Notes under the pieces: model-generated
The model's input: the letters and a program-made list of their open reading frames with translations, nothing else
Database searches by the model: none
Told to the model about the DNA's origin: nothing
Position numbers and translations under genes: made by a program
In this document: one piece after another, positions 13,387 to 63,951 of the stretch
Position numbering within the stretch: the first letter of the stretch is position 1
How the letters are laid out: the number at the start of each line of letters is the position of its first letter
Source of the DNA: Candidatus Ruminimicrobiellum bubulum
GTDB taxonomy: Bacteria; Elusimicrobiota; Endomicrobiia; Endomicrobiales; Endomicrobiaceae
Length of the DNA: 64,000 nt
Reading direction: 5' to 3'
Assembly (NCBI GenBank): GCA_017651625.1
Contig: JAGCCP010000030.1
Location: 1 to 64,000, forward strand

Positions 13387-14439
13387 CTACTGATTTAACA
13401 AAGATTTTCTGTATCTGTTCGTAAATATGATGAATATGTTCTTTAATATGGCAATTGCAGGAACCGCGATAAGCATTCCAAGAATTCCGCCTACATTTGC
13501 GCCGAACAATAAAGCAAAAATCATCGTAACAGGCCCTAAATTTACATTTTTACCGACAATTAACGGTTGAATAATACGGCCATCTATTTGTTGCATAATT
13601 TCTAAAGCGATAAAGACATATAAAACCATTGTAATTGATTTGTATTGTATTGCCGTTGCAAGAATACCGGATATCATAGCTACGGCAGGTCCAAGATAAG
13701 GAATTATATTGAATAAACCGGAAATAACACCTATTATTATTGCGTATTTAACATTAAAACTGAATAAAATTAAACTTGTTACTATTCCTATAAAACAGGC
13801 TTCAATAATTTGACCTCTGATATAACCGCCCAAAACAAAATTTACTTCATATATAAACGATACGAAAAATTCAACATATCTGGCAGGAAGAAACTCAATA
13901 AATGATTCTTTAACTTTGTTTGCACCCAATAACATAAAAAAGGTTATTACCGGAATTAAGATTATAAACGGTATTACAGATACCACTGATGTTATATGTT
14001 GTGTTAAAGTTTCCAATTTGCTTGCAATTAAATCCGTAAGCCCATTTTCTGAATTTTCTGTCGGGTTTGTAATATTGTCGGTATATTTCTTTAAAAATGG
14101 AACTTTTTTAGCAATGTCAGTAGATTGTTCTTTAATAAGTAATTCATATTTGGGATAATTTTCTTTAAATACTTTTATTTCCGTAGTTATAACAGGAATT
14201 AACAAAGTAACAATAAAAGCAAATATAGCTATAATCAACAATGTAATAAAACTAACGGCAACCCATCTTTGCAGACCTAACAACATAATTTTATTTACTA
14301 TAGGGGTAATTAAATAACATATTAAACCTGCTATTATAAAAGGAATAATAATTTGTCTTGATAAATAAAGAACACCGAACAAAAAGAACAATAATAAAAT
14401 AGATATAATAAAAACTTTTGTTACTCTGTTATCTTTCAT
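13387..14439 (-). CDS. AI-2E family (PerM-like) membrane transporter
   Basis: 350-residue integral membrane protein with about seven to eight hydrophobic helices. There is an N-terminal pair (about 10-50), one near 65-85, a soluble loop, and helices from about 150 on. The late segment 'FNIIPYLGPAVAMISGILAT' and 'GRIIQPLIVGKNVNLGPVTMIFALLFGANVGGILGMLIAVPAIAI' motifs are typical of the AI-2E/UPF0118 family. Substrates of the family vary (autoinducer export, Na+/H+ exchange), so none is assigned. Its start overlaps the stop of the upstream cyclic-nucleotide-binding gene by 11 bases, so the two are probably co-translated. Confidence 0.85.
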   Translation of the reverse strand: MKDNRVTKVFIISILLLFFLFGVLYLSRQIIIPFIIAGLICYLITPIVNKIMLLGLQRWVAVSFITLLIIAIFAFIVTLLIPVITTEIKVFKENYPKYELLIKEQSTDIAKKVPFLKKYTDNITNPTENSENGLTDLIASKLETLTQHITSVVSVIPFIILIPVITFFMLLGANKVKESFIEFLPARYVEFFVSFIYEVNFVLGGYIRGQIIEACFIGIVTSLILFSFNVKYAIIIGVISGLFNIIPYLGPAVAMISGILATAIQYKSITMVLYVFIALEIMQQIDGRIIQPLIVGKNVNLGPVTMIFALLFGANVGGILGMLIAVPAIAILKNIFIIFTNRYRKSLLNQ

Positions 14440-14887
14440 TTATTTCTCTCTTATAAAGCATTTTTGATATTCTTTTTAACATGTTGAATCCGATAGCTTT
14501 ATCTTTTTTCATCAAATTTTCAATGTCATCTTTATACATAAAAAATAAATTGCTGTCTTCCAATGCTGTTGCTGTATTGGTATAAACTTCATCATCATTA
14601 AAGGCATATTTTTGGCCGAACAAATCTCTTTTGTTTATAATCTTTTTATTTTTACCGTCATCTAATTCTATTTTGCCTGATCTTACAATACAAAGTAATT
14701 TTGCTTCTTGACCTTTTTTATAAATAACTTCTTTTTGTAAGTAAGTTTTTTTATATATATGAGCTCTTAGTTTTTTTAATTGTGATATATTCAGTTCTTC
14801 AAAAAAATCTATGCTTTTTAGGAATAAAATGTCTTTTTGTAAATCAGTATTAACAAAAATTTTTAAAATTAAATTTTTAATTTTCAT
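14429..14887 (-). CDS. Cyclic nucleotide-binding domain protein without HTH
   Basis: 152 residues with a single cNMP-binding beta-roll: 'FFEELNISQLKKLRAHIYKKTYLQKEVIYKKGQEAKLLCIVRSGKIEL' and 'ALEDSNLFFMYKDDIENLMKK'. The C-terminal helix ends at 'LYKREINER' and there is no helix-turn-helix domain, so it is not a complete Crp/Fnr regulator. The phosphate-binding RxS motif of true cAMP binders is not clear ('TNTATALEDS'). It probably works as a small sensory or adaptor protein for the AI-2E transporter it overlaps. Confidence 0.75.
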   Translation of the reverse strand: MKIKNLILKIFVNTDLQKDILFLKSIDFFEELNISQLKKLRAHIYKKTYLQKEVIYKKGQEAKLLCIVRSGKIELDDGKNKKIINKRDLFGQKYAFNDDEVYTNTATALEDSNLFFMYKDDIENLMKKDKAIGFNMLKRISKMLYKREINER

Positions 14888-15025: not shown

Positions 15026-15130
15026 AATAAATAGTTTGAAACGAACTGAAGTATTTTAAAATTGCGGTGTACATAAGTGAAACGGTACATAAGATTTTAA
15101 AATACAAAAGTGTAGTTCAAAATATTTATT
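15026..15130 (+). repeat. GTGTAC-head hairpin element, copy 5
   Basis: Perfect 12-bp stem GTATTTTAAAAT (15051-15062) with ATTTTAAAATAC (15094-15105), outer GAACT/AGTTC (15043-15047, 15114-15118) and AATAAATA-like arms. The head contains GTGTAC...GGTACA with AAGTGAAAC between. It lies between two minus-strand genes; the rest of 14888-15157 shows no gene. Confidence 0.8.
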
Positions 15131-15724: not shown

Positions 15725-16675
15725 CTAAAAATCTTTTTCACCAAACAAACTTAAATTGTTATCTTTAATGATAAAACTTGTTTGATTTCCTTCTTGAATG
15801 ATATCTTCTTTTGTAATTTTACCTGTTAAGATGGGGGAATTTTTATCGTGCAGTTTATAGTTTTTTAATGTTTCGGCATGATTTATATTTGCATAGCAAT
15901 ATTTACATCCGTTAGGGCAAGTATTATAAGAACCTATATCTCTTGCTTGTATACAATGACAACCTTTTCTCATTCCTTTATGTTTAATGTTTTTAAATCG
16001 TATACCGTTTGCTTTTGACAATATATCAAGTGTCATACAACCGCTTTTATGTATTCCGTATTCTTCGTAAGTATCGTTTGTTCCGCAAGTTTGTATATAT
16101 ATATTGTACTTTTTTGCTGTAGAGCCGATTTCTTTTGCAATTTTATTTTTTTGTTCTTCAGTGAACAAAATTATTTCCGGCATATTTGTTTGTAGCTTTT
16201 TATACATTTCAACAAAACTGAATATGCAACGATTTATATGTCCGGAAAGTTTTTTTGCCATATAGTCAAAAGTTTTTATGTGACGGCTTATTGTGTATTC
16301 TTTTGTTAATAATATAGGATCATATCTCCAGGCAATTCGTTTTGAACCGACAATTTGTTCCAATTGCAAAAGAGTGTTTATACTTTCATCTATTGACGGA
16401 ACATTCGGTTCTATGTCTTTACCGTAAGCAGTGATAGTGTAATGAAAATATGTGTTGAATTTGTCCGTAATCTCATGTAAGCGGGGTAAAATCGGAGCAT
16501 AATTTTTAGAGCAAAAAATTACACAATCTATTTTGTCGGGCGTTAATATATATTTTGTTACTTTGTTTGGAAACATCGGGTTTCTTGAATAAACAAAACC
16601 TTCTTTAAACCTGTTTAAAAGCCATTGAGAATAATATTGAACGGTATCCGTTCTTCCACCGGTATTTAGTATCAT
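15725..16675 (-). CDS. DUF1848 family Fe-S protein
   Basis: 316 residues opening 'MILNTGGRTDTVQYYSQWLLNRFKEGFVYSRNP', the hallmark of DUF1848, with a radical-SAM-like cysteine cluster near residue 245: 'GCHCIQARDIGSYNTCPNGCKYCYANINH'. The CxxxCxxC motif in 'CPNGCKYCYAN' fits a 4Fe-4S site. The family is often called radical SAM-like, but its chemistry is unknown to me. It is divergently placed from the Cys-rich repeat peptide, with about 135 bases between starts, which makes it a possible modifying enzyme for that peptide. That is an inference from position only. Confidence 0.75.
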   Translation of the reverse strand: MILNTGGRTDTVQYYSQWLLNRFKEGFVYSRNPMFPNKVTKYILTPDKIDCVIFCSKNYAPILPRLHEITDKFNTYFHYTITAYGKDIEPNVPSIDESINTLLQLEQIVGSKRIAWRYDPILLTKEYTISRHIKTFDYMAKKLSGHINRCIFSFVEMYKKLQTNMPEIILFTEEQKNKIAKEIGSTAKKYNIYIQTCGTNDTYEEYGIHKSGCMTLDILSKANGIRFKNIKHKGMRKGCHCIQARDIGSYNTCPNGCKYCYANINHAETLKNYKLHDKNSPILTGKITKEDIIQEGNQTSFIIKDNNLSLFGEKDF

Positions 16676-16742
16676 AATTTATTATTTTAAATTATTATTA
16701 ACCGCTAATCAATTGCTTAAAACGAGTACAAAATTTTTTTTC

Positions 16743-16772
16743 TTGACAAATAGTTAAATGTTTAACTATAAT
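16743..16772 (+). promoter_or_regulatory. Promoter with MarR-type operator
   Basis: TTGACA (16743-16748) and TATAAT (16767-16772) are separated by 18 bases. The spacer and -10 box are filled by a perfect palindrome ATAGTTAAA-TG-TTTAACTAT (16750-16769). This size and AT-rich TTAA core are typical of MarR-family operators. A repressor bound here would block polymerase. The marR gene is the second gene of the unit, so autoregulation is likely. Confidence 0.85.
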
Positions 16773-16810
16773 TCTTTTATTGAAGTAAATTTTATAAACG
16801 GAGGGAGAAA

Positions 16811-16987
16811 ATGGCTTTAAAAAATTTATATGGTTGGAACGGCGGAATATCAAAAATTTCTTCACCATGCGGGTGCGGTTCCAAAAAGAATGCAACTCCA
16901 TGCGGATGCGGTTCTAAAAAGAATGCATCTCCTTGCGGTTGTGGTTCCAAAAAGAATGCATCACCTTGCGGATGCGGTTCAAAGTAA
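16811..16987 (+). CDS. 58-residue Cys-rich tandem-repeat peptide
   Basis: Short gene with a good ribosome-binding site (GGAGGG) 5 bases before ATG. Residues 1-18 form a leader-like part (MALKNLYGWNGGISKISS). Then come four copies of an 11-residue unit P-C-G-C-G-S-K-K-N-A-S/T, the last ending at GSK. It holds eight cysteines in four CGC motifs and no acidic residue. DNA repeats are 33 bp and differ at synonymous sites, so selection acts on the peptide. It resembles in plan the Cys/Gly repeat peptides ('ACGX'-type) known beside radical SAM enzymes, but I cannot confirm membership. It could be a modified peptide (RiPP), a metal-binding peptide or a thiol buffer. Candidate partners are the divergent DUF1848 protein and the MarR and MDR genes downstream. 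Confidence 0.8.
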   Translation: MALKNLYGWNGGISKISSPCGCGSKKNATPCGCGSKKNASPCGCGSKKNASPCGCGSK

Positions 16988-17006
16988 TAAAAAATAGAAA
17001 TAAGAG

Positions 17007-17037
17007 TTGCTCTCTGTAAAAGGAGAGCAATTTTTTT
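17007..17037 (+). terminator. Terminator/attenuator between peptide gene and marR
   Basis: TTGCTCTC (17007-17014) pairs with GAGAGCAA (17023-17030), followed by seven Ts. It sits 20 bases after the peptide stop and 16 before the marR start. It should make the peptide message more abundant than the regulator message. Confidence 0.85.
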
Positions 17038-17052
17038 GTTTTAGAGAAAATA

Positions 17053-17481
17053 ATGAATAATTTGAAAGAAGCATTATCATATATATCAAAAATACAAGAG
17101 AAGGGTAATCGTTTTATTGTTGAACAATTAAATAAAAACGGTATAAAAGAATTAGTGCCGAGCCACGGAGATATTTTAGCTGTTCTTTATAAAGACGGTA
17201 AAACAACAATGAAAGAAATTGCGGATAAAATTCACAGAACAAAACCTAATGTGACTATTTTGGTTAATAAACTTGAAAGGCTGGGATATGTGAAAAGAGA
17301 AGACTCAAAAACAGACAGCAGATACACTTATATAGTGTTGACACAAAAAGGCAAAAGTTTTGAAACTGTGTTTAAAGATATTTCAAAAAAACTAAATAAA
17401 AAACTATATAAAAATTTTTCGGATAATGAGTACAAAAAGCTTGAAACTTATTTAAAGAAGGCTTTTAATAATTTAAAGTAA
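17053..17481 (+). CDS. MarR family transcriptional regulator
   Basis: 142-residue winged-helix repressor. The recognition region 'TTMKEIADKIHRTKPNVTILVNKLERLGYVKREDSKTDSRYTYIVLTQKGK' contains the helix-turn-helix and the wing with the conserved DSRYTYI-type strand. N- and C-terminal helices form the usual dimer interface. Its operator is probably the palindrome at 16750-16769, giving control of the peptide gene, itself and the MDR reductase. Such regulators commonly respond to oxidants, phenolics or metals; the single native ligand cannot be read from the sequence. Confidence 0.92.
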   Translation: MNNLKEALSYISKIQEKGNRFIVEQLNKNGIKELVPSHGDILAVLYKDGKTTMKEIADKIHRTKPNVTILVNKLERLGYVKREDSKTDSRYTYIVLTQKGKSFETVFKDISKKLNKKLYKNFSDNEYKKLETYLKKAFNNLK

Positions 17482-17501
17482 AAATGTTTTTAGGAAAATA
17501 A

Positions 17502-18461
17502 ATGGTTAATTTAATGAAAGCGGTTGTAATAGATAAAATTACACCGGCTGCAAATATAAGAATATCGGAAGTTGAAATACCTGAAATAAAGCCCGGGTGG
17601 GTGCTTATTAAAGTTAAAGCATTCGGCTTGAACCATTCCGAAAAAATCTTAAGGTTAGAAGAAATAAACGAAAGTTATATTCAAAAACCTGTTATTCCCG
17701 GAATAGAATGTGTTGGAATTATAGAAAATCCGTCAGACAGCAATTTTAAAAAGGGGCAAAAAGTTATATCTTTAATGGGAGGTATGGGCAGAAGCTTTAA
17801 CGGAAGTTATTGCCAATATGCTCTTTTACCTGTACATCATGTATTTCCGATAGAAAGTAATTTAACATGGGAACAACTTGCAGCCATACCTGAAACTTTT
17901 TTTACTGCATGGGGTTCACTTTTTGAATGTTTACAGTTAAAACAAACTGATAAACTTCTTGTTCGCGGTGCAACATGTGCTTTGGGATACGCTGCAATAC
18001 AAATAGCAAAAGTGATTGGTTGTAAAGTTGTTGCAACTACACATAAAGAAAATAAACTAAAATATATTAGCAAAGCAGATGAACAAATTTTAGATGAAGG
18101 TATACTTACCGGAAAAGTGAAAGGTATAACAAAAGTTCTTGATTTGGTAGGTCCTAAAAGCTTAAAAGATTCTCTTACGACCGCAGAAAAAGGTGCAATA
18201 GTTTGTAATACCGGAATTTTAGGCGGAATTTATGAACTGAACAGTTTTGACCCTATAAAAGATATTCCTAACGGAGTATATCTTACCGGTTTTTTTTCAA
18301 ATTATCCTACACAACAAATTATTGATGACATTTTCAATTTTATAAATGAAAAAAATATAATTCCTGATTTTGTTAATGTGTTTGATTTTGAAAATGTTAA
18401 AGATGCAATAATCGCACAAGATACAGGCACCGTCAACGGAAAAATAGTTGTAAAACTATAA
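17502..18461 (+). CDS. Zinc-independent MDR quinone oxidoreductase-like protein
   Basis: 319 residues (start chosen by AGGAAA five bases upstream; an internal ATG at 17514 also begins 'MKAVVIDK'). Medium-chain dehydrogenase/reductase with 'GWVLIKVKAFGLNHSE', 'VIPGIECVGII', 'PETFFTAWGSLFE' and an NADPH motif region 'DKLLVRGATCALGYAAIQIAKVIGCKVVATT'. Structural zinc cysteines are absent, placing it with quinone reductase/zeta-crystallin relatives. Typical substrates are quinones or enones. It is 20 bases after marR and very likely in its regulon, which hints at a redox or electrophile stress response. Confidence 0.88.
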   Translation: MVNLMKAVVIDKITPAANIRISEVEIPEIKPGWVLIKVKAFGLNHSEKILRLEEINESYIQKPVIPGIECVGIIENPSDSNFKKGQKVISLMGGMGRSFNGSYCQYALLPVHHVFPIESNLTWEQLAAIPETFFTAWGSLFECLQLKQTDKLLVRGATCALGYAAIQIAKVIGCKVVATTHKENKLKYISKADEQILDEGILTGKVKGITKVLDLVGPKSLKDSLTTAEKGAIVCNTGILGGIYELNSFDPIKDIPNGVYLTGFFSNYPTQQIIDDIFNFINEKNIIPDFVNVFDFENVKDAIIAQDTGTVNGKIVVKL

Positions 18462-18552
18462 ATTTGTTTTAATACCGAAGGATTCGGTTAGCTTTTTTAT
18501 TGCTATTGGATTATGTTACAATCCTGAGTTTTTCAATATATTCTTTTTTGAT

Positions 18553-18581
18553 TTGACAAAAAATTTCTTTTTGTATATAAT
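18553..18581 (+). promoter_or_regulatory. Consensus sigma-70 promoter P1 of the amtB leader
   Basis: TTGACA (18553-18558), 17-base spacer, TATAAT (18576-18581): an exact consensus. Transcription should start near 18588-18590, only about 15 bases before the first GCAAAGG hairpin, so an unregulated transcript would end after about 55 bases. Confidence 0.9.
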
Positions 18582-18602
18582 AATACCAACATAATAGAGT
18601 AA

Positions 18603-18644
18603 GCAAAGGCGCTTAAGGATGAAAATCTTTAAGCGCCTTTTTTT
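18603..18644 (+). promoter_or_regulatory. GCAAAGG leader hairpin 1 before amtB
   Basis: Stem 18606-18620 with 18625-18639 (15 bp, one G-U) capped by GAAA and followed by five Ts. Apart from the loop and single changes it matches the glnA leader hairpin. It has the form of an intrinsic terminator. Confidence 0.85.
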
Positions 18645-18665
18645 GTTAAAGTTAAGTTAAAAATT

Positions 18666-18695
18666 TTGTAGTTTGATTTTTTCTGTAAATATAAT
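18666..18695 (+). promoter_or_regulatory. Possible second promoter in the amtB leader
   Basis: TATAAT at 18690-18695 with a weak TTGTAG at 18666-18671 (18-base spacer). It would place a start about 18702, again immediately before a GCAAAGG hairpin. Confidence 0.45.
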
Positions 18696-18705
18696 AAAGT
18701 ATTAG

Positions 18706-18746
18706 GCAAAGGGGCTTAAAGGCAGATGTCTTTAAGCCCCTTTTTC
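18706..18746 (+). promoter_or_regulatory. GCAAAGG leader hairpin 2 before amtB
   Basis: Stem AAGGGGCTTAAAG (18709-18721) with CTTTAAGCCCCTT (18730-18742), loop GCAGATGT (two more pairs possible), then TTTCTTTT. A C-G to G-C change relative to hairpin 1 is compensated on the other arm. Confidence 0.85.
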
Positions 18747-18771
18747 TTTTTGAAGTTATGTTCTTTTATAG

Positions 18772-18808
18772 ATTCCGTATCAAATACGGGATGACACCGC
18801 CGAGCGGT
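18772..18808. repeat. Two small palindromes between amtB leader hairpins
   Basis: TTCCGTAT-CAA-ATACGGGA (about 18772-18789) followed by ATGACA, then ACCGC-CGA-GCGGT (18796-18808). The first resembles the widespread GATTCC...GGAATGACA type of bacterial dispersed palindrome. Either could serve as an extra stem of the leader. Confidence 0.5.
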
Positions 18809-18822
18809 TATAGTTGTTTAGG

Positions 18823-18867
18823 GCAAAGGAGTCCGGAAGAAATATCTTTCGGACTCCTTTCTTTTTT
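18823..18867 (+). promoter_or_regulatory. GCAAAGG leader hairpin 3 before amtB
   Basis: Stem 18826-18840 with 18845-18859 (15 bp, one G-U) and loop AATA, then CTTTTTTT. The stem sequence (AAGGAGTCCGGAAGA) differs strongly from hairpins 1 and 2 while pairing is kept. Only the GCAAAGG start is shared, which marks it as the conserved recognition part. Confidence 0.85.
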
Positions 18868-18926
18868 TGCAGTAAAAGTTTTTTTTATAAATTACATTAT
18901 TGTTGTCGTAGTTATTGGTAAAACAA

Positions 18927-19035
18927 GAGTTTCTAAGTTTTTACTTATAATAAAACATTTGCCGACTGCGGTGTACAAAAGTGAAACGGTACATAAAGAA
19001 GGCAAATGCGAAATTAGAAGTAAAAAATTAAACTC
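18927..19035 (+). repeat. GTGTAC-head hairpin element, copy 6
   Basis: Inner stem CATTTGCC (18956-18963) with GGCAAATG (19001-19008), outer GAGTTT...TTTTTACTT with AAGTAAAAAATTAAACTC, and head GTGTACAAAAGTGAAACGGTACA. It ends 40 bases before amtB. Confidence 0.8.
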
Positions 19036-19074
19036 GCTTAGCTAATAAAAAAATATAGTAAAAGGAGGAGCAAA

Positions 19075-20403
19075 ATGAGAAAGTTGTTAATCGGTATGTT
19101 CTTGTTTTTAATTTCTTTATGTGTGTTTACTCCCGTATATGCACAAGAAATTGAACAAGAAACAGAAGAAGTTGTAGTTCAGGAGGTAAGTAATGTAAGC
19201 GGTGCGGATACTGCATTTATAATTATATGTGCCGCACTTGTTATGATTATGACTCCGGGAGTAGCATTGTTTTACGGAGGTATGGTAAGAAGAAAAAATG
19301 TTTTAGGTATGTTAATGCAAAGTTTTGTTGTTTTAGGCATTGCTACAGTTATTTGGATGCTTTACGGGTATAGTTTGGCATTCGGGCCTGATGTAGGGCA
19401 TGTAATCGGCAGTTTAAAGTGGGCGTTTTTGGATGGTGTAGGTCTTGAACCTGACCCTACATATTCATCTACGTTGCCGCATCAATTGTATATGGGATTT
19501 CAAATGATGTTTGCCGTATTAACACCGGCACTTATTACCGGTGCTTTTGCGGAAAGATTTAAGTTTAAAGCATTTATAATATTTATTGCTGTTTGGATAA
19601 CAATAGTTTATTGCCCTATAGCTCATTGGGTATGGGGACAAGGTGGTTGGATAGGAAATTTAGGCGGACTCGATTTTGCAGGAGGACTTGTAGTTCATAT
19701 CGCATCGGGAACATCTGCACTTGCCGCAATTTTGGTATTGGGTACAAGAAACGGATATAAGAAAGAAGCAATGCCGCCTCACAATTTGCCTATCACTTTT
19801 ATAGGTGCTGCAATATTGTGGATAGGTTGGTTCGGTTTCAATGCGGGAAGTGCATTGGAAGCTTCGGGACTTGCAGTATCGGCGTTTGTAGTAACTCATA
19901 TTGCTGCCGGAGCAGCTTTACTTTCATGGATGATAGCAGAATGGTTATATAGAGGAAAACCTACCGTATTGGGTGCTGTTTCAGGAGCAGTTGCAGGACT
20001 GGTTGCAATAACACCTGCTGCAGGATTTGTTACTCCGATATCGGCATTAATTATAGGTTTTGCAGGCGGAATAGTATGTTTCCTTGCAGTTAACTTAAAA
20101 GAAAGATTCGGTTATGATGATTCTCTCGATGTTATCGGTGTTCACGGTGTTGGCGGTATTTTAGGTGCTCTTCTTACCGGAATATTTGCAACAACATTAG
20201 TCAATCCTGCCGGAGCTGACGGTGGAGTAGAACTGTTGAAAATTCAAACGATAAGTGTTATATCTACTATAGCATATTCGTTTATAGTATCGTTTATAAT
20301 ATTGAAGATAATTGATAAGTTTGTAGGAATAAGAGTAGAACATAAAGAAGAATTGCAGGGATTAGATTTGTCGCAACACGGTGAAAGCGGTTACCGCTTT
20401 TAG
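19075..20403 (+). CDS. amtB: Ammonium transporter
   Basis: 442-residue Amt/MEP/Rh channel. A cleavable signal peptide (MRKLLIGMFLFLISLCVFTPVYA) is followed by a Glu-rich periplasmic stretch (about 24-42) and eleven membrane helices. Family blocks: 'MIMTPGVALFYGGMVRRKN' (first helix), 'TPALITGAFAERFKFKA', 'WVWGQGGWIGNLGGLDFAGGLVVHIASGTSALAA' with the first pore histidine, and 'VIGVHGVGGILGALLTG' with the second. It ends with a cytoplasmic tail for GlnK docking. AAAGGAGGAG precedes the ATG. Regulation: strong promoter plus three leader terminators far upstream. It is co-transcribed with glnK, 32 bases downstream. Confidence 0.97.
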   Translation: MRKLLIGMFLFLISLCVFTPVYAQEIEQETEEVVVQEVSNVSGADTAFIIICAALVMIMTPGVALFYGGMVRRKNVLGMLMQSFVVLGIATVIWMLYGYSLAFGPDVGHVIGSLKWAFLDGVGLEPDPTYSSTLPHQLYMGFQMMFAVLTPALITGAFAERFKFKAFIIFIAVWITIVYCPIAHWVWGQGGWIGNLGGLDFAGGLVVHIASGTSALAAILVLGTRNGYKKEAMPPHNLPITFIGAAILWIGWFGFNAGSALEASGLAVSAFVVTHIAAGAALLSWMIAEWLYRGKPTVLGAVSGAVAGLVAITPAAGFVTPISALIIGFAGGIVCFLAVNLKERFGYDDSLDVIGVHGVGGILGALLTGIFATTLVNPAGADGGVELLKIQTISVISTIAYSFIVSFIILKIIDKFVGIRVEHKEELQGLDLSQHGESGYRF

Positions 20404-38671: not shown

Positions 38672-38714
38672 ACCAATCTTCCAATCATCCAATCTTCCAA
38701 TCATCCGATCTTCT
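38672..38714. repeat. CT-rich octamer tandem repeat
   Basis: Five units of CCAATCTT/CCAATCAT between divergent guaA and aroE. It faces the GA-rich array at 41000-41039, so the aroE-PIN-ispD group is bracketed by inverted arms. Confidence 0.75.
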
Positions 38715-40348: not shown

Positions 40349-41014
40349 ATGAATTTTGCAGCTGTTATTGTTGCCGGCGGTGCAGGTAAAAGATTCGGTT
40401 CAAAAGAGCCGAAACAATTTTTGCTTTTAAACAAGAAAAAAATGTTTGAGTGGAGCATACTTGCATTTAAGAAAGTTAAAGAATGTAAACAAATTATACT
40501 TGTTGTTCCGGAATATAAACTTTTCGAAATGGAAAAATATAAAAAGTTGTATAAAATAGATGTTGTTTGCGGCGGTAAAGAAAGATACAATTCCGTTCAA
40601 AACGGTTTAAATATAGTTAAAGATGATATAGATATCGTTGCCGTTCACGATGCTGCAAGGCCGCTTATAACTTCTAAAATAATAAAAGAAGTGTTCGACA
40701 GTGCGGTTAAATACGGCGGAGCGATAGCGGCAAGTGTTGCAAGAGATACAATAAAATTTTCCAAAAACGGTAAGAATATAACAAAGTCTATAGACAGAAA
40801 CAATATTTGGCAGGCTCAGACTCCGCAGATGTTTAAAACTAAAATATTAAAGAAAGTTTATTCGCAAAAAATACCGAAAACAGTTACCGATGATGCACAA
40901 CTTGTAGAAAAATTCGGTAAAAAGGTAATGTTGGTTGACGGTGGTTACGAAAATTTCAAAGTAACTCAACCGATAGATTTTAAGTTGGCGGAAGCAATAT
41001 TGAAGATTAGATGA
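40349..41014 (+). CDS. ispD: 2-C-methyl-D-erythritol 4-phosphate cytidylyltransferase
   Basis: 221 residues; CTP-dependent step of the MEP isoprenoid pathway. Nucleotide loop 'AVIVAGGAGKRFGSKEPKQFLLL', 'DIVAVHDAARPLITSKII', 'SVARDTIKF', 'IWQAQTPQMFKTKIL', and 'VTDDAQLVEKFGKKVMLVDGG'. It starts one base after the PIN-TRAM stop. The last codons (LKIR-stop) are the first octamers of the downstream repeat array. With ispF and dxr in this window, three MEP enzymes are present. Confidence 0.95.
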   Translation: MNFAAVIVAGGAGKRFGSKEPKQFLLLNKKKMFEWSILAFKKVKECKQIILVVPEYKLFEMEKYKKLYKIDVVCGGKERYNSVQNGLNIVKDDIDIVAVHDAARPLITSKIIKEVFDSAVKYGGAIAASVARDTIKFSKNGKNITKSIDRNNIWQAQTPQMFKTKILKKVYSQKIPKTVTDDAQLVEKFGKKVMLVDGGYENFKVTQPIDFKLAEAILKIR

Positions 41015-41158
41015 TTGGAGGATTGGAAGATTGGAAGTTGTTTTGTAAAAATCGCAAAGCGATTTTTTTGATAATAAATATATTTTTCGCAAAGCAAAAA
41101 ATACAACTTTTCGTCTAATCTTCTATTCTTCAAATCTTCTAATCTTCCAAATTGCGGA
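41000..41158. repeat. Composite inverted-arm element between ispD and ispF
   Basis: Left arm of GATTGGAA-type octamers (about 41000-41039), mini-hairpin AAAAATCGC-AAA-GCGATTTTT (41047-41067), second hairpin around CGCAAAG (41081-41101), right arm of CT-rich octamers (about 41113-41150), and AAATTGC-GGA-GCAATTT (41149-41165) just before the ispF Shine-Dalgarno. The order matches the carA and rRNA-methyltransferase leader elements, but with octamers in place of heptamers. Confidence 0.8.
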
Positions 41159-54745: not shown

Positions 54746-54840
54746 AGGATAATAGGTTTTTATAAATAATAACAAAAATTGCAAAGCAATTTTTACAAAT
54801 CTTCTTCCAATCCTCAAATCATCCAATCTTCCAATCATCC
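54721..54840. repeat. Inverted octamer arms with central mini-hairpin
   Basis: GA-rich octamers (about 54721-54756) overlap the DUF374 stop. AAAAATTGC-AAA-GCAATTTTT lies at 54774-54794. CT-rich octamers (about 54796-54840) complete an inverted pair. Confidence 0.8.
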
Positions 54841-63916: not shown

Positions 63917-63951
63917 GCAAATCTTCTAATCTTCCAATCTTCTATTCTTCC
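63917..63951. repeat. CT-rich octamer repeat at the right end
   Basis: AATCTTCTAATCTTCCAATCTTCTATTCTTCC-type units after recN, the same family as the arrays before dapL and aroE. Confidence 0.7.

Follow-up and report, generated by a model that had tools for sequence, protein, structure and literature searches.

The window analyzed here is the whole stretch of 64,000 nucleotides from Candidatus Ruminimicrobiellum bubulum (assembly GCA_017651625.1, contig JAGCCP010000030.1, positions 1 to 64,000; the genome is here named G000). It contains a small operon with the gene order peptide, marR and MDR reductase, and a divergently oriented gene next to it. A sigma-70-type promoter of the form TTGACA-18-TATAAT is located at 16743-16772 (+) and matches the consensus at 12 of 12 positions. 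It is overlapped by a perfect 20-bp palindrome, ATAGTTAAATGTTTAACTAT (16750-16769), the probable MarR operator. The ORF of a 58-aa peptide follows at 16811-16987 (+), with the SD-like sequence GGAGGGAG at 16800-16807. Between this ORF and marR lies a terminator-like hairpin with a T tract (17002-17035, +; fold z-score -5.7). The MarR-family regulator, a candidate repressor of the unit, is encoded at 17053-17481 (+; Pfam MarR_2, 3.1e-12), and an MDR-family NAD(P)H reductase (quinone oxidoreductase/PIG3-like) at 17502-18461 (+). The divergent gene (15725-16675, -) encodes a DUF1848 protein with a CX3CX2C motif near the C terminus (PF08902, 326 bits). A first-pass annotation of the same DNA had named the promoter, the overlapping palindrome, the hairpin, marR, the MDR reductase and the DUF1848 gene, and each of them was recovered at its place.

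The same annotation had described the peptide as four PCGCGSKKNA repeats. Three full 11-residue PCGCGSKKNA[TS] units are indeed present, whereas the fourth is truncated to PCGCGSK. At the DNA level the array is a tandem repeat (16865-16980) with a period of 33 and 3.5 copies. The peptide carries 8 cysteines in 58 residues, arranged in four CXC motifs. It scored 28.5 bits with the NCBIfam model TIGR04341 (ACGX-repeat peptide, acgA; E 1.7e-6), a margin of 0.5 bits over the cut-off of 28, and its orthologues in two related genomes (here named G010 and G003) stayed below that cut-off with 27.5 and 23.3 bits, respectively. The leader MALKNLYGWNGGISKISS, with its start MALKNLYGWN, fits the leader of the family (compared: MALSNLFGWH, MALSNILGWN and MSLANLAEWN). 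The four Cys-Gly units of the core read P-C-G and not A-C-G; in the G003 orthologue A-C-G is found in every unit. Judged by its sequence, this short cysteine-rich ORF is a genuine gene and encodes a member of the little-studied ACGX-repeat (acgA) family, whose peptides are putative substrates of the radical SAM/SPASM enzyme AcgM. A tblastn search with the window peptide against plasmids and phages gave no match.

The acgM gene is absent from the 64-kb window. The genome carries exactly one AcgM (TIGR04340) on another contig (G000:C35:44516-45529), with 570.9 bits against a cut-off of 400. A second small precursor, beginning MSLSNLYDWNEGIQKK, adjoins this acgM, and its leader is similar to MALKNLYGWNGGISKI, the leader of the window peptide. 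All radical SAM cysteines and most cysteines of the SPASM region are conserved in 40-41 of 41 AcgM sequences, and in a tree of these sequences the three Elusimicrobiota acgM formed one clade. The closest solved structures were SkfB (6efn), 5v1q and 5wgg. The earlier proposal of a new RiPP was thus right in kind but not in novelty, since the peptide belongs to the ACGX-repeat family with AcgM in the same genome. This family has already been named, and what is new is the split layout and the redox neighbourhood. A literature search on ACGX, TIGR04340/04341, DUF1848 and HxlR-radical SAM RiPPs yielded no publication, and no product or function.

Comparison with relatives indicated that the peptide itself is selected, as the first-pass annotation had claimed. 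Its reading frame has not been lost in G010 and G003, and its sequence is kept as well (97% and 65%, respectively). The genes of the window and of G010 differ at 14 nucleotides, of which 12 are third codon positions, and only 2 amino-acid changes result. When the same substitutions were placed at random, a mean of 9.7 amino-acid changes was obtained, and two or fewer occurred in 0 of 20,000 trials. With dN 0.015 and dS 0.39, the window peptide is under strong purifying selection relative to G010. The corresponding values for the acgM-adjacent precursor are dN 0.49 and dS 0.95. The unlinked precursor is therefore better conserved in G000 and G010 than the one beside acgM, which fits the view that it may be the main substrate.

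Among 341 Elusimicrobiota genomes, TIGR04340 was over the cut-off in G000, G003 and G010 only, and the peptide was present in the same three. The near relatives of G000 are rumen Elusimicrobia, and G003 is Ca. Ruminimicrobiellum ovillum. MAGs make up most of the genomes, G003 and G010 among them; the contig that holds the G010 unit measures 5.7 kb and comes from a bin with 5% contamination. In G003 the operon runs aldo/keto reductase, peptide, acgM, marR, PNPOx/ferredoxin and MDR. The G010 operon has the order aldo/keto reductase, peptide, marR, PNPOx/ferredoxin and MDR, with acgM on another contig. The PNPOx-ferredoxin gene of these two operons is missing from that of the window.

Each of the three genomes has one acgM, at one of two places. 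In G000 and G010 a cassette composed of precursor, acgM and a TupA-like ATP-grasp gene is located between proS and lpd, which are directly adjacent in G003. Synonymous divergence between G000 and G003 was 0.37-0.61 for core genes, 0.19 for MDR, 1.2 for acgM and approximately 1.7 for the peptide. These contrasts suggest that the operon was probably exchanged between species and that the peptide-acgM segment has a history of its own. A recent move of the C35 acgM out of the window operon is disfavoured by the dS of acgM when compared to those of MDR and the core genes. Loss, gain or cassette exchange of acgM are each compatible with the data. The TupA-like ATP-grasp gene (PF14305) overlaps acgM in both cassettes (L023 6585-8536 on G000:C35, L022 6064-8030 on G010:C58). 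Its product is 70.5% identical between the two species, whose proS is 98.8% identical, and is possibly a second tailoring enzyme or cargo.

The palindrome alone is unremarkable, because five palindromes meeting the same criterion occur in the window; its significance derives from the identity of the surrounding site in three species. The 27-bp promoter/operator (TTGACA plus palindrome) is identical at 27 of 27 positions in G000, G003 and G010, where it is present as a single copy per genome, and it was not found in 8 congeners without the system. Orthologues of the MarR with 82-86% identity are found beside this unit only, in G003 and G010. The control by MarR suggested in the first-pass annotation is well supported by the conserved operator, and the MarR is probably the repressor of the peptide unit. 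Since the three MarR orthologues contain 0 cysteines, the inducer is probably a bound small molecule rather than an oxidation of MarR thiols. No copy of the MarR operator was found at the C35 acgM, so that the precursor unit and acgM would not be co-regulated through this site. An assignment of the MarR to the radical SAM mobile pair regulators (TIGR04472) was rejected (66.3 bits, cut-off 240).

A hairpin with T tract is located 3' of all five Elusimicrobiota precursors, with fold z-scores from -3.5 to -6.8. In three of the five (G003, G000-C35 and G010-C58) acgM follows the hairpin directly. It probably serves as a partial terminator that sets the precursor far above the downstream products. 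An Rfam search over 16000-19100 returned no match.

The MDR reductase scored 145 bits with TIGR02824, below the cut-off of that model, and represents an ACGX-associated subfamily. Copies near acgM are 57-69% identical to it in Clostridia and 48% in Methanosphaera. Relatives with E <= 1e-80 were present in 14 of 50 acgM-positive and in 0 of 30 acgM-negative Clostridial genomes, and all 15 Clostridial copies lie within ~1 kb of acgM. Within the Elusimicrobiota, the subfamily was found in the three ACGX genomes and as a fragment at a contig end in a further genome (G002). By this distribution, the MDR beside the window peptide is a partner of the ACGX system and not a chance neighbour. The first-pass annotation had read the adjacent reductase as a sign of metal sequestration or oxidant buffering and not of radical modification. 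This preference finds no support, because the same subfamily recurs as a partner of acgM; its recurrence beside the radical SAM gene rather indicates that the redox genes and the radical enzyme form one system.

The DUF1848 gene may be an accessory gene of the ACGX system. Relatives are located inside the ACGX clusters of genome G415 and of Roseburia sp. 831b, the latter with 39% identity, which amounts to three occurrences beside ACGX genes in all; the units of G003 and G010 have no such neighbour. The structure predicted from the single sequence had a pLDDT of 48 and a pTM of 0.50, and TIM-barrel-like matches of the model (old yellow enzymes, spore photoproduct lyase) were discarded as too weak (TM < 0.35). 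A rearranged radical SAM enzyme is one conceivable identity of the protein. PADLOC matched the protein to 'RTasDUF1848', an RT-associated gene. No reverse transcriptase was recognised when the neighbouring ORFs were read by eye.

The Clostridial sample consisted of 397 genomes of the family which holds an uncultured Hungatella relative, and acgM was over the cut-off in 51 of them. Where a Clostridial genome had an acgM match, TIGR04341 peptides were found in 48 of 53 cases, compared to 0 of 27 where it had none; the sampled genomes are related, so that Fisher values overstate their independence, but the pattern is nonetheless clean. Practically all Clostridial precursors found adjoin acgM. The Lachnospiraceae-type arrangement is a divergent HxlR gene followed by acgA-acgM, together with genes for MDR reductase, nitroreductase, flavin/ferredoxin proteins and SirTM/Zn-macro. 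Within 1.5 kb of 30 Clostridial acgM loci we counted HxlR at 26, nitroreductase at 17, PNPOx-ferredoxin at 16 and MDR at 8, and 25 of the 26 HxlR-type regulators carry an N-terminal Cys. In wider regions, SirTM (best PDB match 5a3a) and Zn-macro genes are located near many of the Clostridial loci; SirTM was not found in the window by tblastn. The residue at position +4 of the core cysteines in Clostridia is Asp for 122 of 239 Cys and Cys for 95 of 239.

The plasmid NZ_CP135163.1 of Roseburia sp. 831b carries an HTH gene divergent from acgA, acgM, nitroreductase, 4Fe-4S protein, ADP-ribose hydrolase, Sir2 and DUF1848. In a Synergistales MAG the cluster reads peptide, acgM and nitroreductase. 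The archaeal example is plasmid pNP174 (L170) of Methanosphaera sp. ISO3-F5, where an HTH gene is divergent from an ACG-repeat peptide, a radical SAM gene split into two frames and the MDR mentioned above, with a PNPOx-ferredoxin gene alongside. Further along the same stretch of this plasmid brxL (BREX) is located.

The closest known arrangement is the acgA/acgM system (TIGR04341/TIGR04340), whose gene names are those annotated on the Roseburia sp. 831b plasmid. The window shares with it the leader M[AS]LxN[LI]xxW[NH] and the Cys-Gly repeats. Moreover, an AcgM over the cut-off in the genome, the linked MDR and the PNPOx-ferredoxin gene of the sister operons are alike. It differs from the usual form in having acgM on another contig and a MarR within the operon instead of a divergent HxlR. 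The core units differ as well (PCGCGSKKNAS in the window, ACGSACGAGDKPEEKPA in the acgA/acgM system), and when the Clostridial core CGSACGAGDK is compared to CGCGSK of the window, the acceptor residue may not be the same.

For the chemistry, the PapA/PapB ranthipeptides (freyrasin) offer a comparison, as they also have a multi-repeat Cys precursor. PapB forms thioether cross-links at CX3D spacing (PMC9413430), and this spacing is found in Clostridial ACGX cores. However, AcgM reached only 79.8 bits against the PapB cut-off of 340, and position +4 in the window core is Ser or Lys and not Asp; PapB-type thioether chemistry is therefore a lead only. The best sub-threshold maturase family of AcgM was SbtM, the thio(seleno)oxazole radical SAM maturase (TIGR04082), with 183.5 bits. 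This is below the cut-off of 350, and AcgM (340 aa) is without the N-terminal part of the model, which spans ~195 positions. The SirTM/Zn-macro redox ADP-ribosylation operon is a third point of likeness, because SirTM and macrodomain genes adjoin many Clostridial acgM clusters. In contrast to that operon, GcvH-L and LplA were not noted in ACGX clusters.

We consider the locus to be the precursor unit of a split ACGX (acgA/acgM) RiPP system whose maturase would be supplied in trans and which may have a role in redox stress, and give this reading a probability of about 0.65. Several points weigh against it: the narrow margin over the TIGR04341 cut-off with two orthologues below it, the separation of acgM from this precursor where Clostridial precursors adjoin theirs, the missing MarR operator at the C35 acgM, the deviating core, and the MAG origin of G003 and G010. 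MarR bound to the palindrome would repress the promoter until an inducer releases it. Transcription would then yield much AcgA precursor and smaller amounts of MarR and MDR reductase, whose genes lie beyond the partial terminator. The leader M[AS]LxN[LI]xxWN would be recognised by the single AcgM of the genome, produced from another contig. AcgM would modify the repeated Cys-Gly core, most plausibly with thioether cross-links, and the modified product would be kept within the cell, where it could act together with NAD(P)H and flavin reductases. It may serve to counter thiol-reactive stress, for instance from quinones, nitro compounds or aldehydes. In Bacillus, quinones, HOCl and diamide are signals for HxlR/DUF24 regulators, which govern nitroreductase and azoreductase (PMC6943732), and the SirTM/Zn-macro pair has been linked to oxidative stress (PMC11490716); together, both point to a response to thiol-reactive compounds.

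An alternative starts from the same redox partners. Processing of the modified peptide could yield an electron carrier or small redox cofactor comparable to PQQ or mycofactocin, for use by the linked MDR and flavin enzymes. In favour of this, genes for NAD(P)H and flavin oxidoreductases repeatedly accompany the precursor in Clostridia, in Elusimicrobiota and in one archaeon. Nevertheless, we regard this as unlikely, since the many-repeat core differs from the single-site cores of PQQ and mycofactocin, neither a dedicated peptidase nor a further tailoring enzyme recurs in the clusters, and the reductase partner is not constant (MDR at some loci, nitroreductase or neither at others), which is unexpected for one cofactor-dependent enzyme. 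The peptide could also remain unmodified and buffer metals like a metallothionein with four Cys-Gly-Cys sites, a notion suggested by its cysteine content and CXC motifs, by acgM not being adjacent and by a weak sub-threshold similarity to the metallothionein MymT. The latter match reached only 12 bits against a cut-off of 80 (E 0.14), and membership in that family was rejected. Moreover, the CXC spacing is not conserved (two of the four units in G003 have a single Cys, and Clostridial cores are CX3C or CX3D), ACGX clusters show no recurrent metal transporter or metal sensor, and peptide and radical SAM gene strictly co-occur. Metal buffering is thus quite improbable.

Sactipeptides and SCIFF peptides are products of radical SAM/SPASM maturases, and with SkfB, 5v1q and 5wgg as the nearest solved relatives of AcgM an exported antimicrobial or signalling RiPP of the sactipeptide/ranthipeptide type comes into consideration. 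This is very improbable: at 23 acgM loci no recurrent ABC exporter, C39 peptidase or immunity gene was present, the end of the leader is not of the Gly-Gly type, and the genes that do recur belong to redox metabolism and ADP-ribosylation. That no exporter, peptidase or immunity gene recurs argues at the same time for an intracellular product. Finally, the unit of the window, being without acgM and without the PNPOx-ferredoxin gene of G003 and G010, might be a relic whose peptide is neither modified nor needed any more. We give this little credence, given that purifying selection on its peptide is stronger than on the acgM-adjacent precursor and that the unit has kept an intact promoter, operator, hairpin, MarR and MDR.

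The split ACGX reading extends the family to Elusimicrobiota and provides a natural case of a precursor apart from its maturase. In three bacterial phyla and on one archaeal plasmid, the ACGX peptide is now tied to MDR, nitroreductase, PNPOx-ferredoxin, HxlR/MarR, SirTM/Zn-macro and sometimes DUF1848. This set of partners turns a 'putative RiPP' into a testable proposal, namely a peptide with which anaerobes of gut and rumen respond to stress. A bolder generalization is tentative and, in our estimation, rather doubtful. According to it, AcgA peptides would be intracellular multi-thiol/thioether proteins built by a radical SAM enzyme, not antibiotics, and part of an electrophile response widespread among anaerobes, with Clostridia, Elusimicrobiota, Synergistales and a methanogen sharing it. 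The AcgM product would have an MDR or nitroreductase dedicated to it and, in many lineages, a tie to SirTM ADP-ribosylation. The rumen Elusimicrobia would operate the system in split form, with a single maturase for two precursors, one of them regulated and the other not.

Some further features of the window were recorded. A perfect consensus promoter (TTGACA-17-TATAAT) is located at 18553-18581 with no listed ORF directly downstream. Three strong tandem terminator-like hairpins follow at 18605-18640, 18708-18743 and 18825-18860, before an ammonium-transporter-like gene. The segment 18553-18860, without an Rfam match, is a candidate for one or more small RNAs. The 29-nt sequence GCGGTGTACAnAAGTGAAACGGTACATAA has two near-identical intergenic copies, with 0 expected by chance. 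One (15064-15092) is located upstream of the gene at 14429-14887 (-), the other (18968-18996) upstream of the ammonium-transporter-like gene at 19075. Short tandem arrays of related 8/16-bp units (CCAATCTT, AATCTTCTAATCTTCC) are present at 38673-38713, 41002-41152, 54806-54840 and 63920-63951.
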